Virus record (IMG/VR): IMGVR_UViG_3300027733_000004
Location: 1 to 43,597 of that record
Source of the DNA: a virus
Strand: one strand, 5' to 3'
Length of the DNA stretch: 43,597 nt
Part shown: one piece after another, positions 1 to 39,800 of the stretch
How positions within the stretch are numbered: the first letter of the stretch is position 1
How the letters are laid out: the number at the start of each line of letters is the position of its first letter
The notes under the pieces: generated by a model
Databases searched by the model: none
Seen by the model: the letters and a program-made list of their open reading frames with translations, nothing else
Told to the model about the DNA's origin: nothing
Position numbers and translations under genes: made by a program

Positions 1-127
1 CACCATCGATGAGTGATGGTGCAAGGTCAGCCTACGGGCTGGCCTTTTTTTGTGCCTTTTTATATCTTTACATGTGCTGCCCAGGCGAGTGGGCGTGATA
101 GCGGTGCAATCAATCATTCAATCATTC
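1..127. repeat. Terminal direct repeat, copy 1 (circular contig overlap)
   Basis: Bases 1-127 are identical to bases 43471-43597. The length of 127 equals a common maximum assembly k-mer, so this is most simply the overlap left when a circular or circularly permuted genome is linearised. Positions 1-16 are the 3' end of the last gene (stop TGA at 14-16 here, 43484-43486 in the other copy). The cut falls inside an 8-bp repeat array. Confidence 0.97.
23..52 (+). terminator. Rho-independent terminator of the rightward right-end operon
   Basis: GGTCAGCC (25-32) pairs with GGCTGGCC (37-44) around a TACG tetraloop closed by C-G, the very stable UNCG class, followed by a run of T from 45. It lies just after the stop codon of the last plus-strand gene once the genome is circularised. 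A second copy is at 43493-43522 because of the terminal repeat. Confidence 0.93.
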
Positions 128-272
128 AATCATTCGTTCCGTTCTATCAGTCAATCATTCGCTGCAGTCAATCATTCAATCGTTCAATGGAACCGTTCCA
201 TCATTTCTAACTATCTATCATTCAATCATTTCCATCATTCCATCGTTTCACTCTATCAATCATTCCATCGTT
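111..272. repeat. Array of 13 copies of an 8-bp repeat, CAATCATT type
   Basis: Seven exact CAATCATT copies start at 111, 119, 127, 152, 169, 223 and 257. Six variants fit C(A/C/T)ATC(A/G)TT: 177, 198, 215, 232, 240 and 265. Several run head to tail in an 8-bp register. The array lies in the gene-free gap (17-453) between two convergent operons and is flanked by a terminator on each side. Such arrays can be protein-binding iterons (origin, partition or packaging site), but the sequence alone does not say which. Bases 273-393 hold nothing I can name. Confidence 0.85.
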
Positions 273-393
273 TTGTCAAAGCATGCACTTGACAGGATGA
301 ATACATCCATCCTTTTGCATCAATAAAATCAATTGCTCGCTTTGATAGTGCTGCTTCGATTTTGGGAACCGTGTTTTTTGACAGTTAGAGTGT

Positions 394-430
394 AAAAACA
401 AAAAGGGTAGCACCAATTACGATGCTACCC
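394..430 (-). terminator. Rho-independent terminator of the amidoligase operon
   Basis: On the minus strand GGGTAGCA (430-423) pairs with TGCTACCC (412-405) around a 10-nt loop, followed by TTTTTGTTTTT (404-394). It begins 24 bases past the amidoligase stop codon. Confidence 0.93.
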
Positions 431-453
431 GATGATTAAAAACTATCTATTGA

Positions 454-2016
454 TTAGATGATAGTGTTGTTGCTGAAGTCGTGGTCGATAGCGGAGAGGT
501 TATTGATAGCACTCTCGTATTGCTGGAAAGCCTGCAGAGGCTGATGACCAGCATTGAGATAAGTGCTTTCAAACTTTTTGATGCGTCGAACTGCGTAAAG
601 CTTGAGGTCGAGCGGTGCATCACCGTTCATAAAGTCCTCAAACGAGTCGCAATGGTTTCGGTCACGAGCCAAGTATTGCAAGAAGCGCGACCAATACTTC
701 AACTTGTTAGGGTTGAGAGTAGGCATACCGATACGCACTTCGACGGTTCGATGTTCCGTCCAGCAAGCAGTATTGACAGCGGTGTAACGGTTGTTGTGAT
801 GACCGTTTTGGATGCCGCAATAGCGATTATAGGCACGCTTGACAGATACCATACGATGAGCCCACGTATTGATAGCGTCACGCATCTTACCAGCCGTGCG
901 ATAATAGGACGCATTGCTTTTTTGACGCATATCGATGTGAACGTGATTACCGCAGGTGTTATTGACGATAGCACCGCTAGAGGTCATAGTCTTGAGAGTT
1001 TTGAACACTTCGTTCCAATCGCTCTCATCATCACCATTGATGAATGCCGTGTATTCCTGCAAAGCACACACACGTTCGTTGTTATCGTTGGTGCTGATGC
1101 TACCATCGTGCTTGAACGAGTGGAACGGGATTGCAGGGAAATCATCGGAGTCCCATTGAGTAATGTCGCTACCGGAGCTACCGACGAATTCAAGCTCGAT
1201 ACCCAAGCAAGAACCCTGCGGACGCAAGCGATTAGCGATACGATATGCAGCAGGGGTCAGGGACGTGCTCCAATGGATAGCACGGGTTGCGTAGACCTGC
1301 TCTTTGATACGATAGAGACGGTCACGAACGGAGAGTCCGTTGCCATTGAGATTGATATTGTCCTGATAGTTGTTTCGAGCGTCCTGACGCAAGCGATAAC
1401 TGCGATTAAGCCAGCAAAGAGCGTTGTGCAAGCTCGTGCTGTTATTGTAGCAGAAGTCACGCTGCTTGTTGTAATACTGCTGCGTGTTAGCAGCCCAGGC
1501 TTGCACTCCGTCTCCGTTTTCATAGCCAGCGTGCAGTTTATCACGCTGCCAGAGGTCATACCAATTGCACGTATCATAGCGATGCGTGCTCCAGAGGTAA
1601 GAACGGTTGCGACCCATCCACGCAAGGACAGAAGGGCTATCTTCACCAGCAATCTTCATTGCTTTCAGCAGATTGAAGAATTGAGCACGAGCAACCATTG
1701 CTGCGATGTCAATAGCCTGCGGATAGCGGTCGCCGTAAGCGTTCGAAGCACGGAGTGCTAGCAGAAGCGTCTTTGGCTGATTGCGGACTTCGATAGGGAG
1801 AGCGTTCCACTTCACGACAGGCTCTGCGTTGAAAACGCGAGTGCTAATCGTGAGTTCCCTCCATACTTTCAGTTGTTGCTTGCGGATGATGGACCGAGAC
1901 GAAAGCTCGAGTCCGAGTTTGATGTCGTTAGACATGATGTTGTTTTTGGTATTTTGGTTTGGTTGCACGGATTCGTTGCCGAACCCGTAAGTGTTGAGAG
2001 AATGAAAAGAAGGCAT
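454..2016 (-). CDS. Amidoligase (glutamine-synthetase-like carboxylate-amine ligase family)
   Basis: Predicted ATP-dependent ligase joining an amine or ammonia to a carboxylate. About 520 aa. The C-terminal half carries the family signature in order: GIELE (about 272-276), HDGS (303-306), CGNHVHID (355-362) and VEVR (425-428), matching the G-E-E, DGS, HVH and E-x-R motifs of the putative amidoligase family (Pfam PF12224). The N-terminal half, roughly 270 residues rich in Tyr, Trp and Asn, is not recognised and may choose the substrate. The start at 2016 is chosen because its ATG overlaps the stop of the upstream amidotransferase as TAATG, implying coupled translation; in-frame alternatives are 2034 (before that stop) and 1935. 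Last gene of its operon, followed by a strong terminator. The substrate is unknown: cell-wall peptide, protein or small metabolite are all possible. Confidence 0.85.
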   Translation of the reverse strand: MPSFHSLNTYGFGNESVQPNQNTKNNIMSNDIKLGLELSSRSIIRKQQLKVWRELTISTRVFNAEPVVKWNALPIEVRNQPKTLLLALRASNAYGDRYPQAIDIAAMVARAQFFNLLKAMKIAGEDSPSVLAWMGRNRSYLWSTHRYDTCNWYDLWQRDKLHAGYENGDGVQAWAANTQQYYNKQRDFCYNNSTSLHNALCWLNRSYRLRQDARNNYQDNINLNGNGLSVRDRLYRIKEQVYATRAIHWSTSLTPAAYRIANRLRPQGSCLGIELEFVGSSGSDITQWDSDDFPAIPFHSFKHDGSISTNDNNERVCALQEYTAFINGDDESDWNEVFKTLKTMTSSGAIVNNTCGNHVHIDMRQKSNASYYRTAGKMRDAINTWAHRMVSVKRAYNRYCGIQNGHHNNRYTAVNTACWTEHRTVEVRIGMPTLNPNKLKYWSRFLQYLARDRNHCDSFEDFMNGDAPLDLKLYAVRRIKKFESTYLNAGHQPLQAFQQYESAINNLSAIDHDFSNNTII

Positions 2017-3068
2017 TACTTCTTGTGCTTCCAAGGCTTGGTTGCGTTGCTTTGATGGCGGCGTGCCTGTTGCTTGCGATACTCTTCAAGAGCATCTGCG
2101 GACACTTCACCATTGCTTGCGGTGCTAGGGCTGCTTACGCCACCGGCAGCAGGAGTTGCGACACGATAGCCGTAGGGGTTGTAATCGTCGTCATCCCACG
2201 CAGACCGATAACCTGCAGCACCTGCACTACCAAGGGAGCGATAGATGCTCGAAGTGCTGATGGAGCGAGAAGAGCTATCAAACTTCGCAAAGGATACGGA
2301 GGTAACTTCGCCGCTAGCGTGGAACGTATGCTTAACATACGATGCAATCATCATTGGCGTAGTAATGGTTGCGGGCTTGATGTTATTGAATTCGCAGAGC
2401 ATTTCCGACAACTTATTGCAATGGTCTTGGTCGGTGCAAAGGATGTAGTTATTGAGTTCCTTGATGTATTGCACATATAGCGGTGCTCGGTCATCACGCA
2501 AAGCGAACATTTCACCCTGCGGATTGATACCTACCACAGCAGCATAGCCTGCAAGACCCTTGGAGAAGGATTGCTCGCCGTCCAAGTGAAGGAAGCAATT
2601 GAGGATGTGCTCGCTATCGCAGGTAGTCTGCAGAGGAAGCACTTCACCAGACCAATCTACAACACCGTTGTGAGCAATGGTCCATTGCTTGCCATCCTTG
2701 AAACCTGTGAATGGATGCGTGTTGGTAATGTTCTTGCCGCACGTTGCGGTTCTGCCGTGAGCAATGAAGCTTCCGAGCAAAGGAGTCTTGCTAGGAATGT
2801 TGCCGTGCTGGTCATAATCGACTCCATACACTAATTGCGTTTGAAGCGCCACAGGCAAGATGTCACGGGACGCTTTGAGCGTTCCCATACCCTTGCATGC
2901 AGACGGGTTTACATAGCGTTCGACGAAAACGCCTTCGGATGCTTTGATAGCATAACCGAAGCCGTCACGCTGACTGCTTCCGAGCATTTCGCTCGATACT
3001 TTGATTAGCCGAGAAGCCTGCTTAAGAGTTTTGCAGGACAAGCTCGACATAGCGATTAACTTACACAT
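2016..3068 (-). CDS. Class II glutamine amidotransferase (ammonia donor for the amidoligase)
   Basis: Predicted to hydrolyse glutamine and release ammonia. About 350 aa. It starts Met-Cys, so removal of Met exposes the N-terminal Cys nucleophile of class II amidotransferases. Other family residues are present: the AHGRTAT segment with Arg106, HPF at 118-120, AHNG with Asn134-Gly135, Asp151 (CDSEH), and an RDDRAP segment near 191-196. The core therefore looks active. The last 90 or so residues are Ser, Gly and Tyr rich and look disordered. Translation is coupled to the amidoligase through a TAATG overlap. The start follows an A-rich AAAACAAC repeat with no Shine-Dalgarno. It is similar to YafJ-like stand-alone amidotransferases. 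The pairing with an amidoligase is known from comparative genomics of phages and bacteria; its chemistry here is inferred. Confidence 0.88.
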   Translation of the reverse strand: MCKLIAMSSLSCKTLKQASRLIKVSSEMLGSSQRDGFGYAIKASEGVFVERYVNPSACKGMGTLKASRDILPVALQTQLVYGVDYDQHGNIPSKTPLLGSFIAHGRTATCGKNITNTHPFTGFKDGKQWTIAHNGVVDWSGEVLPLQTTCDSEHILNCFLHLDGEQSFSKGLAGYAAVVGINPQGEMFALRDDRAPLYVQYIKELNNYILCTDQDHCNKLSEMLCEFNNIKPATITTPMMIASYVKHTFHASGEVTSVSFAKFDSSSRSISTSSIYRSLGSAGAAGYRSAWDDDDYNPYGYRVATPAAGGVSSPSTASNGEVSADALEEYRKQQARRHQSNATKPWKHKK

Positions 3069-3648
3069 GTCGTTTTGTTGTTTTGTTGTTTTGGGTTGTG
3101 CTGAACGATTGCTAGCAATACTCTATGCACACGCATAGACAGCACTACATGCTGTGATAGTGTTGCTATCACGCTTCGTGTTGCTTGTATGGATAGTTCT
3201 CGACTCAACAGATGCATCATAACAGATTATCAGGCAACCGACCAGAATATAGTAAAGAAAGTAAATCAGAAGTTATTGTAATACAATGACTTACGTAAAA
3301 CATGCCAACATGCAATGGTAGCGTCAAACAGATAGTAAAGAAAGTAAATCCGATAATCACGTTTTGATGTTGAGGCCGGCGGTGATTGCAAGTCGTCTTG
3401 CTTTCTTTCGGACTGCGTTAGATAGCATGGTATGTGTAAACAATACCACATCTCTAATCGTATAGAACAGTATCTCGTATTCGTTCATGTTATGGTTTTC
3501 AATCTGGTATCCAACATCGCATCAACTCGAGTTCGAGTTCAATGGTGGCAATGGTAACGAAGCAATCTTTAGAATTGCGTCTCACCTCGTTTTGGTCATG
3601 TTGCTTGTGTTGCAAGTTTGATTGCATTGCTTGTAGCCGGTGGATGGT
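3069..3648 (-). promoter_or_regulatory. 580-bp gene-free leader and promoter region of the amidotransferase operon
   Basis: No convincing gene; the 61-aa frame at 3266-3451 has no features. Nearest the gene is an A-rich spacer of AAAACAAC units. Next come three adjacent hairpins: CTATGC/GCATAG (3123-3138), CAGCA/TGCTG (3140-3154) and GTGATAG/CTATCAC (3154-3172). Further upstream is an exact 19-bp direct repeat at 3249-3267 and 3332-3350, with a 13-bp palindrome ATTGTAATACAAT at 3275-3287 between the copies. This reads as a regulated promoter plus a structured 5' leader. Which copy, if either, is a promoter cannot be told. Whether upstream genes read through is also unclear. Confidence 0.6.
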
Positions 3649-9981: not shown

Positions 9982-10584
9982 TTGAGATACAAACTAGAAC
10001 AACAGTCAACGCTTGAACAGGAAATCTGGGACACAGAAGCCAACAAGCTCGTGATTTCGTTCAACAAGGATGATTTCAATGTGGAATTCAATCCCCTTAT
10101 CCCCGAACTGATTGTCAAGTATCTGAACGACAGGAAGTCGGCAGACAGATACGACCAGCATCAGTTGATTGTTTCCCTGTTTGAACTTGCCAAAAACAAG
10201 AACAAGAAGCAAAACGAACTCATCGAAGTAATCGAAGGCTTGAAAGCCGGCGGACAAGCACTCAACTTCATCATCCCTCCACCCATAGACAATAGAAATG
10301 AATGCATCACCACATCGGAACTTTATAAAACTCAATACTCCCTCGCCAAGAAACAATGGCGTGCCTATTACTCCCGTTTCTACGAAAAGACTCCTACTGA
10401 AGAAGATTATTTCGTTCAGCATATGCATCGCTCTGACCTATTTGGTGTTCGTTCTATTGACGGCGAGTGGTTTATGACCATCAACATCGGAGGCAAGAGC
10501 ATGAAAAAATACCTCGGAAAGTCGGAAAATGTTGCAAAGAGAAAAAGAGATGAGATAATCAGACAAATAGCCGACAATGCCTAA
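9982..10584 (+). CDS. Hypothetical protein with AP2-like C-terminal domain, 200 aa
   Basis: Starts with TTG at 9982; the in-frame stop at 9967-9969 limits alternatives to CTG at 9970. The N-terminal 150 residues are helical and unrecognised. The last 50 (DLFGVRSIDGEWFMTINIGG, then KYLGKSENVAKRKRDEIIR) resemble AP2-like DNA-binding or integrase N-terminal folds: three strands and a helix with GV, W, LG and A-x-x-x-R positions. A DNA-binding role is inferred. It overlaps the phosphoesterase gene by 8 bases. Confidence 0.65.
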   Translation: MRYKLEQQSTLEQEIWDTEANKLVISFNKDDFNVEFNPLIPELIVKYLNDRKSADRYDQHQLIVSLFELAKNKNKKQNELIEVIEGLKAGGQALNFIIPPPIDNRNECITTSELYKTQYSLAKKQWRAYYSRFYEKTPTEEDYFVQHMHRSDLFGVRSIDGEWFMTINIGGKSMKKYLGKSENVAKRKRDEIIRQIADNA

Positions 10585-11344
10585 ATATCAGACATTCATA
10601 GCCGTGGGCGACAACCACGGAGACAAGGTAGACCCTATCGCCTTCGACGGAATGGTAGCCTTCCTCAAGGACTTCAAGCCAATGCACCGCATCCATCTTG
10701 GAGACTGCTTCGACTTCCGTTCAATCCGCAGGGGCGTAGGTGCTTCCGACAGAGAGTCCCATGAGTCGATGAAGGAAGATGTTTCAATCGGCAAAGAGTT
10801 CATCTCTGCATTACGTCCTACTGTTTTTCACTACGGAAACCACGAAGATAGACTGCATCAACTGATGACAGGCTCATCCTCTGGCGTTATCAGAGATGCG
10901 GCAGAGAAACAGGACTTGGAACTCAAGTCGTTCCTGCAAAAGAAGGGTTGCAGAACCATCCTTCCCTATCACGCAGACCTTGGCGTGTATAAACTTGGTC
11001 CTATCACTACTGTCCACGGATACACCTGTAACCGCAACGCAGTCGAAGAACAGGCTTCCCACTACGGAAGTCCTGGGGGTGCCGTAATCATGGGACACAT
11101 CCATCGCATCGCTTGCGTCACCGCAAAAAAGCACGGAGGTGTCGTCGGTTTCTCCGGAGGCTGTATGTGCCTCAAGCGAGAAATGGACTACGCCAAGAAC
11201 AGACTAGCCACCTCACAATGGGGTCTTGGCTGGACATACGGCATCGTTGAAGGCAACGAATGGAAGGTATGGCAAGCCCATCGCTTCAACGACGGCTGGA
11301 TTTGGACTACCGAAATTCGCACATGGAAGCACAAAACAAACTAA
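10577..11344 (+). CDS. Calcineurin-like metallophosphoesterase
   Basis: 255 aa with the dimetal phosphoesterase motifs in order: GDNHGD (11-16), GDCFD (42-46), GNHED (87-91), a histidine in VHGY near 148 and GHIH near 171. This is the family of the lambda serine/threonine phosphatase and of several nucleases and cyclic-nucleotide hydrolases. Substrate not predictable. The start overlaps the upstream gene by 8 bases. Confidence 0.85.
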   Translation: MPKYQTFIAVGDNHGDKVDPIAFDGMVAFLKDFKPMHRIHLGDCFDFRSIRRGVGASDRESHESMKEDVSIGKEFISALRPTVFHYGNHEDRLHQLMTGSSSGVIRDAAEKQDLELKSFLQKKGCRTILPYHADLGVYKLGPITTVHGYTCNRNAVEEQASHYGSPGGAVIMGHIHRIACVTAKKHGGVVGFSGGCMCLKREMDYAKNRLATSQWGLGWTYGIVEGNEWKVWQAHRFNDGWIWTTEIRTWKHKTN

Positions 11345-13235: not shown

Positions 13236-13533
13236 TTTGTTTAAGTTTAGATAGGAATTTATTACGAACAAAGTCAAAAAGTTCAGGAGCAAAAGAACCA
13301 GAAATAGAACAAATGACGCTTTTATAGACTTCATCTAAATCTACTTCATGCAAGGAGAAGAAAACAAGCAAGCCAACAATCGAGGCAGCGACTATCTTCT
13401 TCGTCCAGATTGACATTACGAACCTCTCATTGGTGAAGATAAGCCTCATCAGCATGCCAAGACCGCCAAGGATTGCCATAATCCATCCAGCCTTTTTAAA
13501 GGATGTAATCAACTCCTCGTAGTTATCGTTCAT
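13228..13533 (-). CDS. Holin candidate, 101 aa
   Basis: Two clear membrane helices (about 16-33, GWIMAILGGLGMLMRLIF, and 46-61, KIVAASIVGLLVFFS) and a possible weaker third segment near 70-84, with a basic C-terminus (RNKFLSKLK). Size, topology and position immediately before the transglycosylase and spanin support a holin that permeabilises the inner membrane; it may belong to the LydA-like class. The ATG overlaps the stop of the giant gene as ATGA. Confidence 0.72.
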   Translation of the reverse strand: MNDNYEELITSFKKAGWIMAILGGLGMLMRLIFTNERFVMSIWTKKIVAASIVGLLVFFSLHEVDLDEVYKSVICSISGSFAPELFDFVRNKFLSKLKQNE

Positions 13534-16500
13534 CGATTATATCTCTTTTCTATTTCACTTCTTTCACCCTGTGTAAGTCCGGGTCTGACAACCTCAAGAT
13601 TTCTATTCTTGATGATATCTTCATTGGATGCATTGGACGCATCTTGAAAAGACTTGTAAGAACCGACCATCATACCCTTCGGGCTATACACATAGAACAG
13701 GTTAGGTCTATACTTGGTGTTCTTGCCTGTCAATGTATTGGCGATAGCACCAGAAATACTCGGCACGACAACCTTCTTTCCGCCAAGGTCAAGAACGTCC
13801 TTCGGGGCAATCTGTGCGATGAGGTAGCCAAAGTCATTCAAGTATGTGATGTTCTTGGTGGCAACGCCTGCTCTTCTGATGGCATTGATTGTCTGGAGGT
13901 GGGTTTCTGCAAAATGAGCAGCCTCCATGTTATTGGTAGTCGTGGGAGCAGGACCCTTCTTTTCTCTCTCAATGAATGTTTCGTAGTCCTTGATAAGACC
14001 ATCCGACCACTTAAGTGCAAGTTCAAGAGACTGTCTGTGTCTTGCGACATCCTGCTCTTTCTCGACAGCACCCTCATGCCACACGTCATAATCAACCTGT
14101 GCGGCATCAATCTCAGCCCTCATCGCAAGCCATTCTTCATTGGTATAGTGTGCCGGCTTAGGACCTGTAGGTGTCTTCGGTCTGACAGGATTGAGAGGAA
14201 CTTTCTTTCTGTCTGCAGCATCTTTTTCACTTGCGACCATTTCTCTGAATGTCTGTTGACCTTCAGCAAGAACCTTATTATCAAAATACCAACCAAAGTA
14301 ACCTTTCTTTCTGAAGTCCTGAATCCATGCAATCGTCTTTGATGGACTAGACTCAACAACGTCAGCACCAAGTTCTTGCACCATAGACGCAGCAACTTCG
14401 TTAGCCCAAGCAGCATCACCGACGTTACGTAGGTGCTTTTTGAACGCCCAATAAACAGGGTTCTTGTCAGCAAATCTGACCTGCTGCTGAACTCCGTTTT
14501 CAACAGTAGTTTTCTTCCACTCCATGACTCCAGACTCGGTAAGTTGTCTGTGCTTCTCGTTTGTGATAGCAACCTCGACTGAACCAGACTCAACTGCGTC
14601 TTGAATTGTCGCCATAAGGACATCTGTTCGAGCACCCTGTTGGTTGCCCTTAAGTGACATATTTGTCCTGATGGTAAGACCGGATTTGGTGTCAACAAGG
14701 TCAAACTTCTTGGTGCCAGCGTTTCTCTTAACAGTCCAAGTTCCGTCTTTGGAAATAAATTCGGTTCTTCTACCGGCCTCAAATGTAGTGCCGACAGGAA
14801 TAAAGCCAGCCTCACTCATGCTCATTTCAAACGCATTGCCAATCTGGGGAGAGTTAGACAATGGGTTTTCTACCGAGTGCTTCATGGCTGCGTTTTCAGC
14901 ATCCGTTCTGAGTTTGAATTCTCCGGAAACTCTTCTTCTCTCGGGGTCAAAGGCAATCCATCGCTGCTCCGTGACTCCGTGGAACGCAGGGTTCTTTCTT
15001 TCAACCAGCCACAAGGAGTAACCAGAGCCGTGTCTTGCACCAGACAGAACCCTATCTTCTCCCATGTTATACTGATTTGACATAGTTGTAATCTCACTAT
15101 TTGTGATATTAAACCACGCGCTACCTGTCGCATGGTTGGCTTTACCCCAGGAATATACGTTATTGGTAAATGGAATCATTGCCGGTTCACCACTCTTTGT
15201 GAGAACTCTTCCAATAGAGCCAAGAACTCTGTCTGGTCTGATTTTTGTGAAAATCATCTTTGCGTCCCAATCAGCACCAGAACCATACTCATTCTGGTTC
15301 TTGGCTCTCAATCTTGCAAAGAATTCAGAAGCCTCGTCTCTTTCAATGTCTTTGTCACGAAGTGTCTTAAGTCTGGCTTTTTCATCAGTAGACAGTTTCT
15401 TTGCGTCCTTGGACTCAAGTGCAATCAGTTCTCCAAGTTCGCTATCAGGAAAACCAATTGTTCTCAGGATGACATCAGCCATCTTCATGGCTACCTTCTG
15501 GTTGCCATTTGCATACGGAAGCAGCACCTGCCATGACCTCTTGGGAGGAAATCTCGTAGCGTTACCTTGATACGGTCCGCCCTGCGAGAAGTTCATCAGA
15601 ACCTTCTCCTGTGCCTCGATGAACATGTTGTAATTGGTAAACATGTTCTTGATTTCCTGATGCGACCATTCGTATCTTGTGCCCTTTGAGTCCTTGAGAC
15701 TTCCTTCCCAAGAAGCCTTAGACCTATCATTCCAAGCGTCGACATCGACAACCCAGAAATACATCATATCAACCGGCTCCATGTTCTTATCCGTTATGTA
15801 GCCTTTCTTGTCTCTTTCCTTCAACTTATAGCCAGACTCATCAAGAGTTGTTTGGTCAATGACAACGGCAAACGGAGCAAACCTTCTCATGCCTTGGTGA
15901 CCTCTTACGACCTTTCCTGTTTCGGTCATATGAGTAACACCTGCATAATCGACGAGGAAAACAGGAATGTGTCCAGCTGTCTTGTTTTTCTGATTTTCGG
16001 CATCAAGCACGTCGCTTCTGCCAATCGCATCAAGCATCTTGGCGATAGTGTCAAGATGGTGGTTGTTCATTCTGAACGGAGATGAAGCACCAAATTCACC
16101 GGTAGTTTTCAGCCATTCGATAAGCCTTTGGCTCTGTTCCTTGCTTGGAGTTCCAGAAAGAACAATCTTTCCATTCTTATTCTTGAACGGAAGCAGTCCG
16201 TAAATCTGACCTCTATCGTCAGTATCAACGACGACGTTCTTGAAGACTTCAATGGGCTTTGACTCTTCCTTGAATAACTGTGCAATCGGTGCCTTGAACT
16301 TGCCATCTTTGCCTAGCCATTCTTTTCTTCCCGTTGCAAATGCCCAAAGAATTCTTCTCTGTCTTGCTTCGGGAGAATTAGAATCTTCTTCACTATGGAT
16401 GGCATCAAACATGAAGTTGTCGTTCATGCTAATCTGAGAAGGAACACCTCTGGTCATCGCATGTGCTGCATCAACCGTCTGTTGAAGCGAAGGATGAACA

Positions 16501-19500
16501 GGTGCGTATTTTCCGGTTACCTCATCCCACAACTCCGTGGAAGAAAAGAACTTTGCAGGGTCAAGAGAGTCGTTGCCTTCCATCTTGAAGCCAAACTTTC
16601 TGCCAAGGTCAATGACAGTAGAACGCATCATTTTATCGTAGACACCGCCCATCATGAACATGTCTGTCCACATCTTGCTTCCTGCAATTCTTTCCTCAAG
16701 TCGAGCAATCTCCTGTTTTCTGTTTTCAACTTCTTCGTGAGTCATCTTGGACTCATCGATGTCTCTGGAGTAATAAGCAAGAAGGTTGTTTGCATCATCT
16801 TGAGTAACCATGTCCATGAACGTAGTCTGACCAAAGGCAAACTTGAAGAAGTTCTTCCAGACTCCGTTGCCAGCCACAATAGGAGAAGTTTCCCATCTTC
16901 CGTGGAAAGACTGAGGAGTTGCTCCTGTTTTTACCGCTTGAGGATTGGCAACAAGCTGACGCATCTGGTATACCTTTCCCCAGATTTCAAGGAAGACATC
17001 TTGCATGTGTCTTGTGTCAGCCTTATTCATCTGCCATTGTTTTTTGCCATGCTCCCATCTTGCAAGAAAGATTGGACCTTGTTCCGGTCCAAGTCCGTCT
17101 GCGTATGCTTTGGCATACATGTCCATGAAGGCAATAGCCTGTTCTGGAGTCTTTGCCACAGTCGGACCTTCCTTCATCACGAACTCATTATGCTCATTCA
17201 GTTCCCACTTGCCAAGGAAGTGACGCATGAACGTTGTTCTGTTGGACGCAAGTGCGTCGGAAAGGAAGAGGGCGTGTGCTAGTTCTTCAAGGACGATTGA
17301 AGCACCGGGTCTTGTCGTTGATGTAGCAGGTCTAAGGAAAGCATCCTTGTCGATGAGGATTTGTGTCTTTGACACCATGTTGCCAAAACCGTCATCGGTA
17401 GGAACGTGAAACAGGATAACGCCTTCTCTTTTTTCAATCGTCACCCCGTTATCAAGCGTCATGAATTCTCCAATTCTTGCACTTCTGGTAGGAGATAGCG
17501 ATGGAACCAACTTGCTTCTTTCTCCTTCAAGTGCTGAAATCTGAGTATTAGCATCAAGAACCTGCTGCTTGTTGTTTGCAAGTTCTTTTGATAGTTCAAC
17601 CCAAGAGGACTTAAACGAGTTAATCTTGCTGATTGTCTTTGCACTAAGATTTGATGTTATGTCAACAGGAGCTCCATCTTTGCCCGCTGCAGTAACGACA
17701 AAGCCCTGTTCGTTGAGTTTAACATTCTCGACCGAAACTCCAGCTTCTTGTGCTACAAGTTTTGCGACATCTCTGAACTTTGAAATTCTGTCTTTACCAT
17801 CCTTTTCAAGATTAACTACAAGTTCGTTAAGCTTTTTAATCTTAAGGTCAATGTCACCGATACCTGCTTCTGCGGCAAGCGAGTCGGTGTGTGTCTTCAT
17901 CATCTGCTTGGCATGTGCTTCAGCCTCGATTCCGGTAAGTCCAAGCTCTTTTGCTTGCTGCAGGAATTGGTCTTTTGCGGCTTCCGCAAGTTCTGGAGTG
18001 GCAAACTCTCTGCTGCCCCAAAGTGCAACAGCTGCGGATGTAACAGAAGCGTCATGAAACTCGACATTAGTTCCACTCAACGCTCTGTTGATAAGCGATA
18101 TATAAGCGGCAAACTCCTTCTGTGCAAGGATGGATTGATTGACTTTCAGTATCATCGAGCCAGGAGCATTCATCTTGCCGTCTCGTCTTTGAACAAGCGT
18201 ATCAATCATTTCTCTGATTGTAACAGCCTGACTGGGGTCCATTTCAGCCATTCTTGCGGAAAGTTCCATCAGGTCTAGGACTGTTCTTTCATTAATTCCG
18301 TGCGTAGGAGACACGTTTCTGATGAAAGAACGATTCATTACGCTCAACGACTTTGTTCCAAACGTATAGCCTGTTGCAGTTCCAAGCATCTGCGTGTCGC
18401 CAAGCCACATTAGTCCTTCATTGACAAACGAAGAAGCCATCACGTTGCCAATCTGATAGACACCGGCACCGATACCATGCTCTACAAGTCCGTTGGCAAT
18501 GCTCGAAAACTGCTTAAGTGCTGTAAGTCTTTCAATCTTAGCCATCAACTTAGCATGTTCTTCCTTGGTGCTAAGACCCGTTTTGACACCGGCAGCGGTT
18601 CTTTCAAGTTCGGCAAGTGCGTCATCAAGTTGAGTTCCGTAACTCTTACGAAGAATTCCAGAAACAGAGCGTGCTTCACTTGTCGCAAGAGAAGAAGCTT
18701 TCAGCCAGTCATTCCAGAACTCAAAGAAATAACCACCATAACCAGCAAGGTTGGCAATAGACCAAATCTTTCTTCCTTCATTCCACTTGGCAGCCCAATT
18801 GCCCGTAGATGTCACGGTCATGTTCATCGATGCGGCCTTATCTACGTCTCCTGTAGCACCAAGGATTGCAGCAACTTCGCCCTGCGATGGCATATTAAAT
18901 CTGGACACTTCTTTGCTTGTCTTATCAAGACCAGCTTGAACACCCCTGAATGCTCTGGAAAGACCGTAAGTAATACCACGACCAGGCATATTCATCAGAA
19001 GGTCTTCGATTGCTTCCAAGTCTTTGTATCCAGCAAGGTCACTAGCATCAAACTTTCTCCACGCATCTCCAACCTCTTTTCTTATGTTGCTGACCATCGA
19101 TTCCGTGATATTGACAGCACTTGTCTTACCAGCAGGCATTGCAATTCCGCCCTGCATCAATCTCTGATAAATCTCAAAATTAGAAGCGTCATCCCAAAGT
19201 CCGGGTTCAATTTCAGAAAGTCTCTGTCTGACCCTTTTGATGGTTTCTTCGGATGCCGTAGAATAGTTGATGTTTCTGCCTTCTTTTACAATCTTGGCAA
19301 ACTGTCTTCTGACGCCAGCAATTGAATTGCTCTTGTTGATGATGTCAGTCTTTAACGCCTCAACCATCTCCTTTGGGATTGTTTCAAGGGTCTTTGTCGC
19401 AGGATTAAACCATCTTGCTCTGCCTGAAATAATTCTTTCAATAGCTTCATAGTCATCGATGACCATGCCATTTGCCTTTGCTGTATCCTTGACAGACTCA

Positions 19501-21224
19501 AGAAGCACTCTAGATGTACCTTCAAGCTTGCCTCCTTTTCTTTCGATGTCAGACGCAATAAGTCTGGCTTCAATTGCCGCTTCCTTGGCTGCACCTTCTG
19601 CAGCACCCTTGATGGTTTCTACTCCACCAAAACCAACAAGCTTGCCAAAGTTCTTATAGATAGCCCTTGCAGTCCAGATGTCAAGGAAAGTAGATGCATC
19701 TTCTCTTACTCTCTGGCTTCCAGCACCGCTAATCTTAGTAAAAAGACCTTGTTCCGGTATGCTTGCAATGCCTTCACGCATAGCTTGGACTGCGTTGATA
19801 TAACGCATTTGAGCCTTGATTTGAACGTCTTCCCATGTGATTGCACCAAGTGCGTATCTGCTTTCATCGGCAAGGCTTGAGCCAATCTCACTACCGAAAT
19901 ATTCTGTGATTACAGAATTAGGGTCAGTAGATGTAACAAGATAAGAAAGTCCTGCGGTTGCCGTTACGATGCCATCAAGCAAAGAAAGCACGGAACCGGC
20001 AGTATTCTGACCTGCAGCCAAAGCAGGGTTTTCGGCACCAGTAAACGCACCTTTCTTTCTAAGTTTTGCGTAAAGGTCAACGACCTTCTTTGATTGCTCT
20101 TCAATCTCTGTGATTGACGTAGGGTCTTTAGAGTCAAGGAACATTCTCAAAGAGTCATGCTCGGAAATGCCTCCGTGTTTTTCCCTAAAACCTTTGAGTT
20201 CAGCGGGAAATCCTCCTAATGTGTCCTTTGAAATTCTTCTTTGCTCAAGAAGCTTGTTTACCTCAAAGATAAAACTCTGTTTAAGTTCTCCGTTTTCACC
20301 AGAGGCATTCTTGAAGTCATCGCTCCATGTGTAATCAGGATGAACAAAGGCTTCAAGCGTAGCAGGAGCAAGGTCCACCACAGAACCATAAAGATGACCA
20401 AGTGAATTCTTGGCATTATTGACCCAATCTGAAAATCCGGGATTTCTCTGCATTCTCTTTGCAGCCTTGAACATCTCAAGGTCGGACTTTGACTCTGGAT
20501 TAAGCGGAACTCCAGACTGCAGTCTTTCAAGGTATGTCGTAGGATATTGTTCTTCTACAAGTCCTGCCTTTTTTGCGGCATCCCAAACCTTAGAATGAAT
20601 GTCCGTTCTATAGATTCTGGAATACTTGTTGTTTCCTCCAAGGTATTGTGCACGCTCTTCCGGGGAAATTAGTTTCTTTTCAAGAAGGATTTTAGTGAAA
20701 AACTCTTGGTCACGCAGGGCGTTTGGGTCTTCCTTGACAATATCCATAACGCCTTCCTGCATAAGTCTGTTGAACAAAAAGTTGCCTTGTTCTCCTTCTT
20801 TCAGAAGGTTCGTGATGACTTCATCCTTGTTTGCACCTTTTGACGTAAGCCAAGAACCGTAAGAAGAACGAACGGGCTCTTTAGGCATGATTTTATCATT
20901 ATTTGCCTGAACTCCCGGAATAGAAGCATCCATCGATGGAAGAGCACTAATGCGGTCTGCATCCTCTCTCCACTTCTTGTAGTTAACGTCAAATATCGAT
21001 TTTTCCGCAAAAGCAGCATCAATATCAGAGCCTATGGCCCTTGCTTCCTTTGAGTCACTATTATTGAAAGAAGTAATGGCTGTTTTGTTCTCTCTAGTTC
21101 CTGGAAGAACGTAGGAAGGTGGATAAAACGCTCTCTTGTCGTAGCTAGAACCTGCGGCAAACGGCTCTTTTGGCTTAACTACTTCTGTGCTTGGAGCCTC
21201 GAAAACGCCGGGATTTTGTGCCAT
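13530..21224 (-). CDS. Giant virion-associated protein, about 2564 aa (ejection/polyvalent type)
   Basis: The largest gene, 18 percent of the genome. ATG chosen at 21224; the frame begins at a TTG at 21236. It sits after three other predicted internal proteins and before the lysis genes, the place of large ejection proteins in short-tailed phages. Near residue 1308 is VLEELAHALF, which looks like a zincin helix but with Glu in place of the first His of HExxH, so metal binding is doubtful. Multiple helical and mixed segments follow. Charged helical N- and C-termini, no signal peptide. No RNA polymerase motifs were noticed. Likely carried in the capsid and injected; enzymatic content unknown. 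A domain search on segments would be decisive. Confidence 0.7.
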   Translation of the reverse strand: MAQNPGVFEAPSTEVVKPKEPFAAGSSYDKRAFYPPSYVLPGTRENKTAITSFNNSDSKEARAIGSDIDAAFAEKSIFDVNYKKWREDADRISALPSMDASIPGVQANNDKIMPKEPVRSSYGSWLTSKGANKDEVITNLLKEGEQGNFLFNRLMQEGVMDIVKEDPNALRDQEFFTKILLEKKLISPEERAQYLGGNNKYSRIYRTDIHSKVWDAAKKAGLVEEQYPTTYLERLQSGVPLNPESKSDLEMFKAAKRMQRNPGFSDWVNNAKNSLGHLYGSVVDLAPATLEAFVHPDYTWSDDFKNASGENGELKQSFIFEVNKLLEQRRISKDTLGGFPAELKGFREKHGGISEHDSLRMFLDSKDPTSITEIEEQSKKVVDLYAKLRKKGAFTGAENPALAAGQNTAGSVLSLLDGIVTATAGLSYLVTSTDPNSVITEYFGSEIGSSLADESRYALGAITWEDVQIKAQMRYINAVQAMREGIASIPEQGLFTKISGAGSQRVREDASTFLDIWTARAIYKNFGKLVGFGGVETIKGAAEGAAKEAAIEARLIASDIERKGGKLEGTSRVLLESVKDTAKANGMVIDDYEAIERIISGRARWFNPATKTLETIPKEMVEALKTDIINKSNSIAGVRRQFAKIVKEGRNINYSTASEETIKRVRQRLSEIEPGLWDDASNFEIYQRLMQGGIAMPAGKTSAVNITESMVSNIRKEVGDAWRKFDASDLAGYKDLEAIEDLLMNMPGRGITYGLSRAFRGVQAGLDKTSKEVSRFNMPSQGEVAAILGATGDVDKAASMNMTVTSTGNWAAKWNEGRKIWSIANLAGYGGYFFEFWNDWLKASSLATSEARSVSGILRKSYGTQLDDALAELERTAAGVKTGLSTKEEHAKLMAKIERLTALKQFSSIANGLVEHGIGAGVYQIGNVMASSFVNEGLMWLGDTQMLGTATGYTFGTKSLSVMNRSFIRNVSPTHGINERTVLDLMELSARMAEMDPSQAVTIREMIDTLVQRRDGKMNAPGSMILKVNQSILAQKEFAAYISLINRALSGTNVEFHDASVTSAAVALWGSREFATPELAEAAKDQFLQQAKELGLTGIEAEAHAKQMMKTHTDSLAAEAGIGDIDLKIKKLNELVVNLEKDGKDRISKFRDVAKLVAQEAGVSVENVKLNEQGFVVTAAGKDGAPVDITSNLSAKTISKINSFKSSWVELSKELANNKQQVLDANTQISALEGERSKLVPSLSPTRSARIGEFMTLDNGVTIEKREGVILFHVPTDDGFGNMVSKTQILIDKDAFLRPATSTTRPGASIVLEELAHALFLSDALASNRTTFMRHFLGKWELNEHNEFVMKEGPTVAKTPEQAIAFMDMYAKAYADGLGPEQGPIFLARWEHGKKQWQMNKADTRHMQDVFLEIWGKVYQMRQLVANPQAVKTGATPQSFHGRWETSPIVAGNGVWKNFFKFAFGQTTFMDMVTQDDANNLLAYYSRDIDESKMTHEEVENRKQEIARLEERIAGSKMWTDMFMMGGVYDKMMRSTVIDLGRKFGFKMEGNDSLDPAKFFSSTELWDEVTGKYAPVHPSLQQTVDAAHAMTRGVPSQISMNDNFMFDAIHSEEDSNSPEARQRRILWAFATGRKEWLGKDGKFKAPIAQLFKEESKPIEVFKNVVVDTDDRGQIYGLLPFKNKNGKIVLSGTPSKEQSQRLIEWLKTTGEFGASSPFRMNNHHLDTIAKMLDAIGRSDVLDAENQKNKTAGHIPVFLVDYAGVTHMTETGKVVRGHQGMRRFAPFAVVIDQTTLDESGYKLKERDKKGYITDKNMEPVDMMYFWVVDVDAWNDRSKASWEGSLKDSKGTRYEWSHQEIKNMFTNYNMFIEAQEKVLMNFSQGGPYQGNATRFPPKRSWQVLLPYANGNQKVAMKMADVILRTIGFPDSELGELIALESKDAKKLSTDEKARLKTLRDKDIERDEASEFFARLRAKNQNEYGSGADWDAKMIFTKIRPDRVLGSIGRVLTKSGEPAMIPFTNNVYSWGKANHATGSAWFNITNSEITTMSNQYNMGEDRVLSGARHGSGYSLWLVERKNPAFHGVTEQRWIAFDPERRRVSGEFKLRTDAENAAMKHSVENPLSNSPQIGNAFEMSMSEAGFIPVGTTFEAGRRTEFISKDGTWTVKRNAGTKKFDLVDTKSGLTIRTNMSLKGNQQGARTDVLMATIQDAVESGSVEVAITNEKHRQLTESGVMEWKKTTVENGVQQQVRFADKNPVYWAFKKHLRNVGDAAWANEVAASMVQELGADVVESSPSKTIAWIQDFRKKGYFGWYFDNKVLAEGQQTFREMVASEKDAADRKKVPLNPVRPKTPTGPKPAHYTNEEWLAMRAEIDAAQVDYDVWHEGAVEKEQDVARHRQSLELALKWSDGLIKDYETFIEREKKGPAPTTTNNMEAAHFAETHLQTINAIRRAGVATKNITYLNDFGYLIAQIAPKDVLDLGGKKVVVPSISGAIANTLTGKNTKYRPNLFYVYSPKGMMVGSYKSFQDASNASNEDIIKNRNLEVVRPGLTQGERSEIEKRYNR

Positions 21225-21261
21225 GATACGATTCAATACTTGAATTATTGCTTTTCAAGCA

Positions 21262-35225: not shown

Positions 35226-36848
35226 TCAATAAGAACCTCCACCGATGGGTGTAAAAGTGCTACCGTTTTCGTGGGAAGGGTTCATTACTGCGATGTATCT
35301 CAATGCGTCAATAGGGTCTTTTGTAGCACCCTTATCATTGTCCTGTCCTGTCCACTCACGCAGGGAATAAATAAGGTTTTGACACTTATCAGAGATGAAA
35401 AGTTTAGGTTCGTTGATACCAGAGATGGGTTGGCTCATGTCGTAAGACAGCCAATCGTTGATAATTGAAATACCTTGGTCAATCTTGATACCAGCGGACG
35501 GTTTGAAGAACATCGGGTTGTCTCCAGTATTGAGAAGGTCAATCAATGACGTTCCGCCATCCCTGCCAATTGCTTGCGTAGCACCGGCACGGGGGTCAAT
35601 GTATCTTTCTGCCACTTCCTCTTCTTCCTCCATCGATGAGATGAGGTCTTTATACTCATCTATGCCACGACCAGCCCCAGCACGCTGGGCAGGACCCTCA
35701 CGACCATCCGCTTTTGAGTCAGCCAACGCCCACTCGCCATAACTTTCATCTGGAAACTCACGGAAAATAAAGATTTTGCCATCTTCTGTGCATCTTGCCC
35801 ACAGCATAAACCAATTTCTTGCACCAGCAGGGTCGCAAGACATGAAAACTGTGCCCTCCTTTGGGATTTTATCGTGAGGAATGATATGGTTTTCACCAAA
35901 CATCGGAAATTGAGAGCCTACCAGAGCCTGTGCCCACCCGTATGCTCGGATTTTTTTCTCATAATCTGTCTTTGAGGAGAGTTCTTTGACCATTCTCTCA
36001 AACGGAGAATAGACATTGAACTTGGAATGAAACCAAATTATGCCTGCGTTCTTGGTTCTGGCTTCAGCCGTGAACGGCATGTGACCTTTTGGGCATCCGT
36101 TTACATGGATTAGACTCTGTGAAAGTATTTCTGCCCTCTCTGTTTTGACGAACTTGCATCCGCTGACATACTCTTTGACTACCTGCGAAAATCCGTTGAT
36201 GGGAGTGAAGGTAATCAGCAGTTTTCCAAGTCTTGTAAGAATACGGTATCGCAACGTCTGCACCCAATCAAGCGGAACAAGCTCGTCGCACCAGATAAAG
36301 TCCGGCTCTCCGCCTTCGATAACCACCTTGTCCTGTGCATAATTCATGAAGATGCATTGAGAACCGTTGGGGAAAACAAAAGAGTTATTAGAGAAGCCGT
36401 TTTTCAAGGAGTATTGGATGTTTGTGATGCGTCCCTTCTTGATTGTCTTATATTCGTTAGGAATGTATTTCCAGATTACGTTCTGCTGCATCTGGACGGA
36501 AGACATGGATGTGGTATGGATGCACCACACGATGGAGTTTGGCTTGTTGACAAGCGTATAGATAGCCCTCTTTGCGGCATACTCCGTCTTACCTGCACGA
36601 TTGCCACCAAGAATAAGCAGTTCGTCCTTTTCCTTTAGCAGTTTGTCCGCCTCATTCCAATGAAACGGCTCATAGCCGTGACGATAAGGGTCTTCTTTTT
36701 CAGCAGTTATCTTGTCTTCCCTGAGCTGAATGAGTTTTGTGACATAATCAATGCCGTTATTGTCTACAAGGTTTCTGATTGTCTCCTCGTCTGGCTTTTT
36801 CAGAACAGGATGGTCTGTCATCTTGTCGATGATTTTGGAGATACTCAT
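35226..36848 (-). CDS. terL: Terminase large subunit
   Basis: 540 aa packaging motor. Walker A GGNRAGKTE (81-89), Walker B FIWCDE (184-189), a coupling segment LLITFTPINGF (210-220), and the RNase-H-fold nuclease with FMSCDPAG (Asp339) and a C-terminal DPIDALRY helix near 512 carrying the last acidic residue. The ATG overlaps the stop of the 1096-aa gene as ATGA. No small terminase neighbour; the HTH protein at 5701 is a candidate. Confidence 0.92.
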   Translation of the reverse strand: MSISKIIDKMTDHPVLKKPDEETIRNLVDNNGIDYVTKLIQLREDKITAEKEDPYRHGYEPFHWNEADKLLKEKDELLILGGNRAGKTEYAAKRAIYTLVNKPNSIVWCIHTTSMSSVQMQQNVIWKYIPNEYKTIKKGRITNIQYSLKNGFSNNSFVFPNGSQCIFMNYAQDKVVIEGGEPDFIWCDELVPLDWVQTLRYRILTRLGKLLITFTPINGFSQVVKEYVSGCKFVKTERAEILSQSLIHVNGCPKGHMPFTAEARTKNAGIIWFHSKFNVYSPFERMVKELSSKTDYEKKIRAYGWAQALVGSQFPMFGENHIIPHDKIPKEGTVFMSCDPAGARNWFMLWARCTEDGKIFIFREFPDESYGEWALADSKADGREGPAQRAGAGRGIDEYKDLISSMEEEEEVAERYIDPRAGATQAIGRDGGTSLIDLLNTGDNPMFFKPSAGIKIDQGISIINDWLSYDMSQPISGINEPKLFISDKCQNLIYSLREWTGQDNDKGATKDPIDALRYIAVMNPSHENGSTFTPIGGGSY

Positions 36849-39800
36849 ATGACGTCTTTTGCGAAAATGTCGTTTTTGTCAAGCCATTGTTGATACGCTT
36901 CTTCTTTTTTCTTGGTTTCAACCTTTTTGACCCTTTCGGCTTCCATCTTTTCAAGAAGATTCCAATCGACTTTCTGCTTATCAATAGGATTGAACATTGC
37001 GTTTGCAACAGAACGAGCAATCTCTGGCTGACGCTCTGCACGAATTGCAGCTTCTTCAGCCCTTCTTCTATTTGCACCCTCAATTGTGGCATCGCCCATC
37101 ATAGTAACTCCGCCAAGGTATCTATCAAAGTATTTAAACATAAGATAGCCAAGACCCATCTCTCCAGCAGCCGCAGGAGCCGCCTTATAGAACGGCATAC
37201 CTTCGCTCATCTTTGAGCCAATATTAACGCCAGCCATTGCGGACATGAGCAAGCCAGGTCCGTATTTTCCTGCGGCATCTATAGTGGCATTGTGAACTCC
37301 GGCTCTAAAGCTTGGATTGTTTGCGTATTTGTTTGCAAAGCCTTTCGTGTATCTGTCCATGTGTTGCTCCATCATCACGCCCGTGTCATACAACTTTTCA
37401 AGTTGAGGACCAAAGTTAGAGCCAAGCTTGCCGTAGTTAGGATTTCCTACCGTAGACTCATCTACTAGGTTTTTTATGAGAGTATATCCAGGAGTTACGG
37501 TTTGTGCTAATTCCGCAGGGTGTGCTCTTCTTGCCGTAGAACCGGCATAAAGCATCTTTTCAAGACCTTCGACTTTTTTTCCAGCCAATACCTGGTCTGC
37601 GAAATCTTCAGCAGTATTATATCCTTTGATGAAAGGATAAGAATTTTGCCTATCATGGTAATAAAGCGTTCCTTGTTGAATTGAAAGTTCATGCCTTTGC
37701 TTGTCATCAGTTATGTGTGCAAGAGCTTCATATTCTTTTCTTATCTCGTCATCTAACGTGGTTTTTGCAATAGGTTCTACCACTTCTCTTGCAAATCTAA
37801 TCAATGCATCCCTATAGACATGTTGAGGAGCAGCTTCGGTAGGGATAGGTTTCAATCCTTTTTCATTCGGGTCGTTGTTCCATTCTCTTACGATATCAAA
37901 CCCGGTAGGATTGTCTGGATTTACCTTGAGAAGAACAGAAGGTCTTGCGCTTGAATTCAAATCAAACTCTCCAGACGGAAATTGGAATGTTCTTTGGGTT
38001 CTTTTTTCCTTAAATCCGGTTCCTTCAAGTTTTACCCATGTGGGTCTTGATTTCTTATCTTCAGGAATTGCAAAGAGTGTTTTCAAGAAATCCCTATCCA
38101 TAGCGGAAGAAGTTCCGTATTTAGCAATAAGCTCCTTTGGATTAGGAACCCATATGACAGTATCTCCATTTGCAAGCTTGACTCCCTTTCCGGGCAATTG
38201 CCCTTCCCATGTCACTCTTTCTCCGATATGCTTCAACCTTTCCTCACCCACACCAACCTGAATTGATGTTATATTGGACTCAAGGTCTGAATATTCAACA
38301 TCTGGTCCATATGGTTTCAGTTTGTCATAAATCGAATATTTGCTTTCCTTAATCTGTTCGACGGATTGCCATGGTGCGGTATATCTAGTGACAGGCAAGG
38401 ACTCGGAATACATCGCACCTTCTTTTCCAAGGTGAGGCCATTGTAGTCGCCCAACCGTAATTCTTCCGCTGTCTGAAACAACAGGTTCTCCGGTAAATCT
38501 TCCTTTTATACGCCAAGCATCTTGTGCGTCCTTGAACGAAGCCTCATCAGATGGATTTACGTAGACCTTATCTCCGGTAGGTCCTAATACATAACTTCTG
38601 TTATTAGTCACATCAAGGAAATAATCTTCCTGTCTTATGGCTGGACTAAGCGTGTTTAAGTTCGGAGAAGCAGGGTTTATGGAAAGAGGAAGATATCTTG
38701 GAGTTTGATTTATTTCATAACTTGGAAAAAATCTTCCTTCAGGTGCCGCAGTTCCTATCACGGGAAGTCCAGGTCCGACATCATCCATTCCGGTCAGGAC
38801 GGTTCCAAGCTGAGCAAATACTTTTCTTGTGAAAAGGTCAGGGTCTGTCTTTGCCTGTTGCGACCACACTTTTTTTCCGGATACTTCTTCCAACGCCATT
38901 CCAAGGGCATTGTCTCGCATGCCGCCTCCTACGATATTATTTCCTTGAGAATATCCGATGTCAGAAAGAAGAAAGTCAAGAGAATCAAGACCATTCTTAT
39001 AAGCATGCAACGCTGAGCCGTAATCTCCACGGTTTGAAGTAAGTATTGCTTTCTGCTGCGGAGTATATTGGTCTGATACAAGCGTGTCCCTTATGAAATC
39101 ACGAGTATCCAAAAGCCACTTTGCATGCTTTTTCACCAACTCAATTCTTTCAGGAGTAATCAAATCCCTGAGTTCTTTTGCCTGCATTTCGTCCCTGCTT
39201 TTCTTGAAAACAGGCATGAAAGATTCAAGTTTAAGGTCAGTAATTTCTTTTTGTATATCCTGCTTTTCACGTCTCCAGTCAGACCTTTGATAACTTGCGT
39301 CGATTGCGTCTTGATTTTTATTCGCATGACTTGCATCTATCTTATCGTCAAGTTCCTTGATTGACCTGCGCAAATCAGATGTTTCAATCCTGAAATCTTC
39401 AGCAACTTCCGGATGATGCCTTTCAATATAATCATCCAGCGACTTGATAGATTCTTCGTCATATAGGTCATCCGAAACTTTTTCACGTTTTCTTTCTTCT
39501 TTGTCCATACCCCAGACGAAAGAAAGATTTGCCAGATTACTCATCCTTCTTGAAATATTTGAGATTTCAAATTTCAATTCGGAAAGTCCTTTTGTCGTCT
39601 GAGAACCACCCTCATGGGAAGGAATTGTTATTTTCGCCTCTTGGACTGCGTTTGGACCAACATCTCCTTTTGACGGATGTAATTCAGTTCCTCCTTCATG
39701 CCAATCGTCTGGAAGTGCGAATTGTTTATCAGGTGCATTTCCACGCCTATCTCCCCACTTGTCGCCAAGTGTTGCGAGGATATATCTTTGACCTGGAGTA

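Follow-up and report, generated by a model that had tools for sequence, protein, structure and literature searches.

The window analyzed here, an IMG/VR record of 43,597 bases taken over its full length, represents a bacterial virus from an environmental sample and carries two linked genes on the minus strand at positions 454-3068 (Table 1). The first encodes a putative class II glutamine amidotransferase (GAT) and the second a putative amidoligase. As described in the initial annotation, both open reading frames are in place, and their domain matches lie above curated cut-offs. The amidoligase frame had been listed as 454-2034 from a TTG codon; the ATG of the TAATG overlap at 2016 gives 454-2016 and a protein of 520 residues. 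Phage replication and head genes are found elsewhere in the window, i.e., RusA, exonuclease VIII, a replication initiator, a DnaC-like loader, Erf, terminase, and a major head protein. No recognised lysis gene adjoins the pair among the gene matches of the window, and no other metabolic gene was recognised among the neighbouring genes.

Table 1. Positions of the two genes, their protein regions and flanking elements in the window.
Feature	Position	Strand	Basis
Class II (Ntn-type) glutamine amidotransferase (GAT), first of pair	2016-3068	-	ATG start, 350 aa; Pfam, Foldseek, invariant residues
GAT residues 1-265, predicted Ntn hydrolase glutaminase domain	2274-3068	-	AlphaFold model
GAT residues 267-350, SLGSAG motif, disordered linker, C-terminal helix and KPWK end	2019-2270	-	Model, alignment
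TAATG, GAT stop and amidoligase start with one base in common	2014-2018	-	Sequence
Amidoligase_2 enzyme, second of pair	454-2016	-	ATG at 2016, 520 aa; PF12224 E 6.3e-8
Amidoligase residues 1-264, N-terminal region	1225-2016	-	Model; first 30 residues low-confidence, then mostly helical
Amidoligase residues 265-491, predicted glutamine-synthetase-superfamily catalytic domain	544-1224	-	VIA-align
Intrinsic terminator directly 3' of amidoligase stop	405-430	-	11-bp stem, 4-nt loop, T-rich tail

The terminator hairpin region (395-460, minus strand) folds at -20.6 kcal/mol (z -5.83), and irregular direct repeats built on CAATCATTC lie just past it (window 94-276). Two near-identical 22-nt copies are located upstream of GAT at 3249-3270 and 3332-3353. 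Their 17-base core, allowing up to three mismatches, occurs only in these two copies in the window versus 0.17 expected, and they are possibly regulatory sites. In the related contig L001, the pair is followed downstream by counterparts of window genes from the opposite end of the record; judged from this gene order, the record may represent a genome that is circular or permuted and was opened just beyond the pair. Further along, the window encodes a metallophosphoesterase-like protein (10577-11344, PHROG 221), as do several relatives, and two open reading frames without a PHROG match at E <=0.01 (13530-21236, 2568 aa; 36845-40135, 1096 aa). Many genomes of OM43 phages contain a metallophosphoesterase gene, and amidoligase and GAT likewise occur in OM43 phages, according to PMC10580990.

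Catalytic domains of the two proteins

GAT matches the Pfam profiles PF13522 GATase_6 (E 1.3e-7, 32.1 bits with a curated cut-off of 27) and PF13230 (E 2.8e-7). The AlphaFold model has a mean pLDDT of 69, with means of 55-95 for 10-residue blocks up to residue 260, and resembles the glutaminase domains of PurF and GlmS in a Foldseek search of the PDB (best E 5.6e-10). At E <=0.001, 58 PDB chains were matched, and the 50 listed are PurF-type and GlmS/GFAT-type enzymes, 1te5, and EgtC. Residue 2, directly after the initial methionine, is a cysteine in all 14 GATs, and C2, H104, R106, H118, N134, G135, and D151 are invariant across the same 14 aligned rows. H104-R106, H118, N134-G135, and D151 presumably correspond to the class II glutaminase motifs. 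The predicted Ntn glutaminase fold, the profile match, and the cysteine after Met thus fit a class II glutamine amidotransferase.

The amidoligase scores 33.2 bits with PF12224 Amidoligase_2 (curated cut-off 22), which exceeded its cut-off in 15/15 records, namely the window and 14 related ones, and it matches two PHROG amidoligase families (E 1.5e-7 and 5.7e-5). Its model, folded as a whole protein, has a mean pLDDT of 78 and was matched in BFVD to phage amidoligases, including those of Arthrobacter phage Salgado, Pseudomonas phage tf, and Salinivibrio phage CW02. VIA-align gave Z values of 9.8-11.5 for residues 265-491, with rmsd values of 3.1-4.5 in most listed rows, in alignments to YbdK-type ligases, glutamine synthetases, GmaS, and Dop; the best of these were 1tt4_A (Z 11.5, rmsd 4.2, 205 residues aligned) and the YbdK structure 1r8g_B (Z 11.4), and glutamine synthetases and Dop reached about 10. 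The shared fold comes with an identity of 8-15% in the listed rows, and the window differs from this superfamily in having a separate GAT and an additional N-terminal region. Fifteen of 15 aligned rows retain E274, E276, D304, S306, E321, N352, C355, G356, H358, H360, D362, R364, R394, E426, and R428, and we take the stretch around E426, R428, and N435 to be the C-terminal Arg/Glu motif of glutamine synthetase. Profile score, predicted glutamine-synthetase-like fold, and acidic, histidine, and arginine motif residues all place the protein in Amidoligase_2.

Structure prediction, which the initial annotation had proposed as a check, thus gave a glutaminase fold for GAT and a glutamine-synthetase-type fold for the amidoligase. 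Loss of catalytic residues in close relatives, named there as evidence against the pair, was not found. In the proposed chemistry, loss of Met1 would expose the catalytic cysteine of GAT, which would hydrolyse glutamine. The ammonia would pass to the glutamine-synthetase-fold amidoligase, which would activate a carboxylate with ATP and convert it to an amide. Predicted folds, motifs, and linkage support this route from glutamine via ammonia to a carboxylate, and we regard joint amide-synthase chemistry of the two proteins as likely.

Linkage, selection, and distribution of the pair

Scans of IMG/VR recovered one or both genes on 16 contigs, two of which (L006, L012) end inside the amidoligase. 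In all 14 related contigs that are readable on both sides, the genes are adjacent and on the same strand; separation of the two genes in most relatives, which a gene-neighbourhood survey might have revealed, was thus not found. GAT comes first in 11 of these contigs and the amidoligase in three (L007, L013, L026). L007 and L013 group together in both protein trees and L026 is placed elsewhere, so adjacency has outlasted changes of gene order. L023 and L024 have identical scores and are probably near-duplicates rather than independent records; L024 was omitted from both alignments and L006 from that of the amidoligase. The TAATG overlap had been read as a sign that both proteins are made together. 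The overlap itself is real, but it is restricted to the window, and the gaps in relatives range from 7 to 185 nt.

The conserved adjacency also bears on a different reading, in which the amidoligase joins an amino compound instead of ammonia to a carboxylate and GAT acts separately, e.g., by trimming the product hydrolytically. This arrangement is conceivable as we know of no amine assigned to PF12224 enzymes. In addition, PMC5498523 places the glutamine amidotransferase among the degradation functions of the module. However, adjacency in 14/14 contigs in either order, together with an intact glutaminase active site, favours ammonia transfer, and we consider separate roles quite improbable.

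Relatives of both proteins align across nearly the whole length, and dN/dS values in three pairs of relatives each were 0.06-0.11 for GAT and 0.17-0.45 for the amidoligase. Judged from these comparisons, it is well supported that purifying selection acts on both genes. The near-full-length relatives and low dN/dS argue that GAT and amidoligase are not chance open reading frames, and the pair appears real and functional. Its predicted folds, active sites, linkage, and purifying selection are well supported.

Related phages were also collected independently of the pair, with the terminase as query. This survey found 91 related loci, of which 80 were kept, and profile scans covered the 30 with contigs of at least 16 kb. 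All eight contigs with a terminase identity of at least 77% carry the amidoligase and seven carry GAT, the eighth contig stopping within the amidoligase; all eight had previously been found through the pair itself. The other 22 contigs belong to sister phages with a terminase identity of 60-65%, and in none of them did the GAT or the amidoligase profile find a match. PF12224 also gave 0/22 in these contigs, in a scan whose control was silent, though the profile matched 15/15 records elsewhere. A local scan of all 80 kept loci added a single contig, L077 (terminase 61%), with an amidoligase fragment at 2-718 on a cut contig, which places the gene outside the close clade as well. L023, with a terminase identity of 58%, carries both genes. 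Short contigs without a match are uninformative because they may end before the pair. The pair is thus a constant feature of a single phage clade but scattered in its occurrence outside that clade, and its absence from the matches in 22/22 sister contigs suggests that it is dispensable in the wider phage group.

Searches of phage collections with the GAT of the window or with that of L026 returned no match, nor did a nucleotide search with the whole gene pair. One profile scan of genome contigs, for which the GAT alignment served as query, detected no relative and hence located no host or prophage copy.

The amidoligase N-terminal region and the GAT tail

The part of the amidoligase that precedes the catalytic domain had been described as an unrecognised domain of 270 residues. 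It indeed has no family match in the Pfam and PHROG libraries, but its extent is smaller, as the mostly helical region predicted in the whole-protein model spans about residues 35-264 and follows 30 residues of low confidence. A PDB sequence search with the amidoligase alignment (A3) gave only chance-like matches (E 0.25-0.57). Foldseek with the whole amidoligase model found nothing in the PDB at E <=0.001, the best match being a glutamine synthetase (0.023). The VIA-align rows mostly cover residues 265-491, so this search barely sampled the N-terminal region, and folding was done on whole proteins. A single PADLOC match (PD-Lambda-5_A, E 0.0059, 13.3 bits) fell in the helical region, and a reading as a defence system was rejected. 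Mean pairwise p-distance is 0.78 in the N-terminal region versus 0.50 in the catalytic part, and dN/dS was higher, i.e., constraint lower, in the N-terminal part in 3/3 pairs, with an approximate boundary between the parts.

Faster divergence than in the catalytic domain is expected for a recognition part, and the same chemistry could act on a protein, with the helical region selecting a host factor or virion protein for amidation of its side-chain or C-terminal carboxylates. The catalytic fold also resembles Dop, which acts on protein (Z about 10), and the peptide-chemistry partners of the published wall module, considered below, were not found. However, Dop is matched no better than glutamine synthetases or YbdK, and the neighbourhood of the pair yielded no candidate for such a substrate. 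A protein substrate seems unlikely to us.

The tail of GAT has pLDDT values below 50 at residues 267-327 and 336-350. Its SLGSAG motif is present in 13/14 GATs, and the basic C-terminal segment has a K-P-W-K-like end in 11/14; L013 has the variant NPYK, and the end is absent in L023 and L026. The amidoligase partners of these two GATs have 324 and 164 residues before E274, respectively, versus 250-286 in the others. As the GATs without PWK pair with amidoligases of unusual N-terminal length, the tail and the helical region may meet. This co-variation of motif and length suggests that the tail contacts the helical region, and it is possibly a docking element, in which case the flexible tail with its PWK-like end would tether GAT to the amidoligase. 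Matches of the tail to VP4 (E 0.028 and worse) fell on a low-complexity stretch and were taken as chance.

Known modules and possible targets

Pairing of the two families was known beforehand, as the initial annotation had stated. In the gp16-gp22 module of LUZ24, as in the window, an Amidoligase_2 gene adjoins a class II GAT gene (gp18-gp19). LUZ24 gp18 is shorter (391 versus 520 amino acids) and was not reported by our amidoligase profile (A3) at E <=1, whereas gp19 was by the GAT profile (A4; E 1.8e-9). Many Pseudomonas records and a few from Bruynoghevirus have major head proteins that are distantly similar to that of the window. Genes 93-94 of the Laroyevirus Wheelbite, an Arthrobacter phage, likewise encode adjoining enzymes, in the order amidoligase then GAT. 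The Wheelbite amidoligase, with 337 amino acids short compared with that of the window, is matched by A3 (E 2.9e-19), whereas its GAT is not matched by A4. Wheelbite also has a cyclotransferase at 57258-57626, the site of gene 92, of which no counterpart was found in the window.

In LUZ24-like and phiEco32-like phages, the module as published has further members, namely a COOH-NH2 ligase, an ATP-grasp enzyme, and a gamma-glutamyl cyclotransferase (PMC5498523, PMC11945000). We searched 15 records, the window and 14 related ones, for these partners; several of the records are fragments. The COOH-NH2 ligase profile (PF14395) was above cut-off in 0/15, with one sub-threshold match (11.8 bits, G010); its controls were positive in LUZ24 and phiEco32 and negative in Wheelbite. 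The cyclotransferase profile (PF06094) matched 0/15 at E <=1 and all three controls (LUZ24, phiEco32, Wheelbite). PF14243 was unusable for the ATP-grasp enzyme as it missed the LUZ24 control, and LUZ24 gp21 was used instead; this query matched 0/15 records, phiEco32 but not Wheelbite, and a diverged ATP-grasp protein could escape it. The kind of system is thus already known, and the window appears, by sequence comparison, to hold a reduced two-gene version in which no COOH-NH2 ligase, cyclotransferase, or LUZ24-type ATP-grasp enzyme was found. What distinguishes this version is the N-terminal region of the amidoligase, predicted to be mostly helical and evolving fast, together with the disordered GAT tail and its PWK-like end.

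The initial annotation had regarded the target in phages as not known. Our literature survey, which covered titles and the opening lines of abstracts and few subscription papers, found no demonstrated substrate of a phage amidoligase/GAT pair. The peptidoglycan idea, however, was already a published hypothesis: PMC5498523, PMC11945000, and PMC10580990 propose that amidoligase/GAT modules alter peptidoglycan and block superinfection. Several of PMC3890496, PMC3517423, PMC10580990, PMC10945688, PMC5498523, PMC7824862, PMC11945000, PMC9348578, PMC6209634, PMC11450229, PMC11318856, and PMC11253131 credit Iyer et al. 2009 with this idea, and PMC5498523 additionally credits Hardies et al. 2013. Two evolved isolates of Bruynoghevirus FJK have missense changes in both genes (PMC11450229); these two may descend from a common ancestor, and the changes imply no function.

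Neither N-terminus shows an export signal on reading by eye, so a cytosolic substrate is expected. MurT-GatD of Staphylococcus uses glutamine nitrogen, and its amidotransferase belongs to class I, whereas that of the window is class II. Like the window pair, MurT-GatD comprises two genes; they are reported to be co-transcribed and responsible for peptidoglycan amidation, and the enzyme has a Mur-ligase-like substrate domain where the window pair has a glutamine synthetase fold. By our proposal, the window pair would amidate a peptidoglycan precursor on a stem-peptide carboxylate, and the amidated wall of the infected cell would resist premature lysis or the entry of a second phage. We infer joint action, tail docking, substrate, and benefit to the phage, and assign a probability of roughly 0.35 to the proposal as a whole, in which two subunits form a glutamine-dependent amide synthase whose substrate is a peptidoglycan precursor in the cytosol, benefit included. 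Peptidoglycan as the target is itself tentative. The published module partners were not found in the window and its relatives, and the target could therefore differ from peptidoglycan. A minimal, self-contained amide synthase, in which the GAT tail plugs into the helical region and no module partners are needed for amidation of the host's peptidoglycan precursor or of some other single target, is an unlikely variant.

The folds closest to that of the amidoligase, namely those of glutamine synthetases, GmaS, and YbdK, belong to enzymes that act on small molecules. This would be in accordance with a role in nitrogen metabolism during infection or in the amidation of a small molecule or secondary metabolite, and papers on OM43 phages (PMC10580990) and Phage-ZRK32 (PMC10945688) class such genes as auxiliary metabolic genes. 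Yet the long N-terminal region points to a larger partner or substrate and no further metabolic gene was recognised alongside the pair, which leaves this role with a low probability. Our order of preference is a peptidoglycan precursor first, a protein second, and a small molecule third.

Amidoligase and GAT genes are recurrent accessory genes in phages to which a wall-modification hypothesis is attached. The two-gene version is the simplest form in which to test this hypothesis, with one glutaminase, one ligase, and one expected mass shift. If the wall is the target, the pair would be a means, encoded by the phage, of amidating peptidoglycan and possibly of blocking superinfection; if it is not, the annotation of many phages would be redirected.
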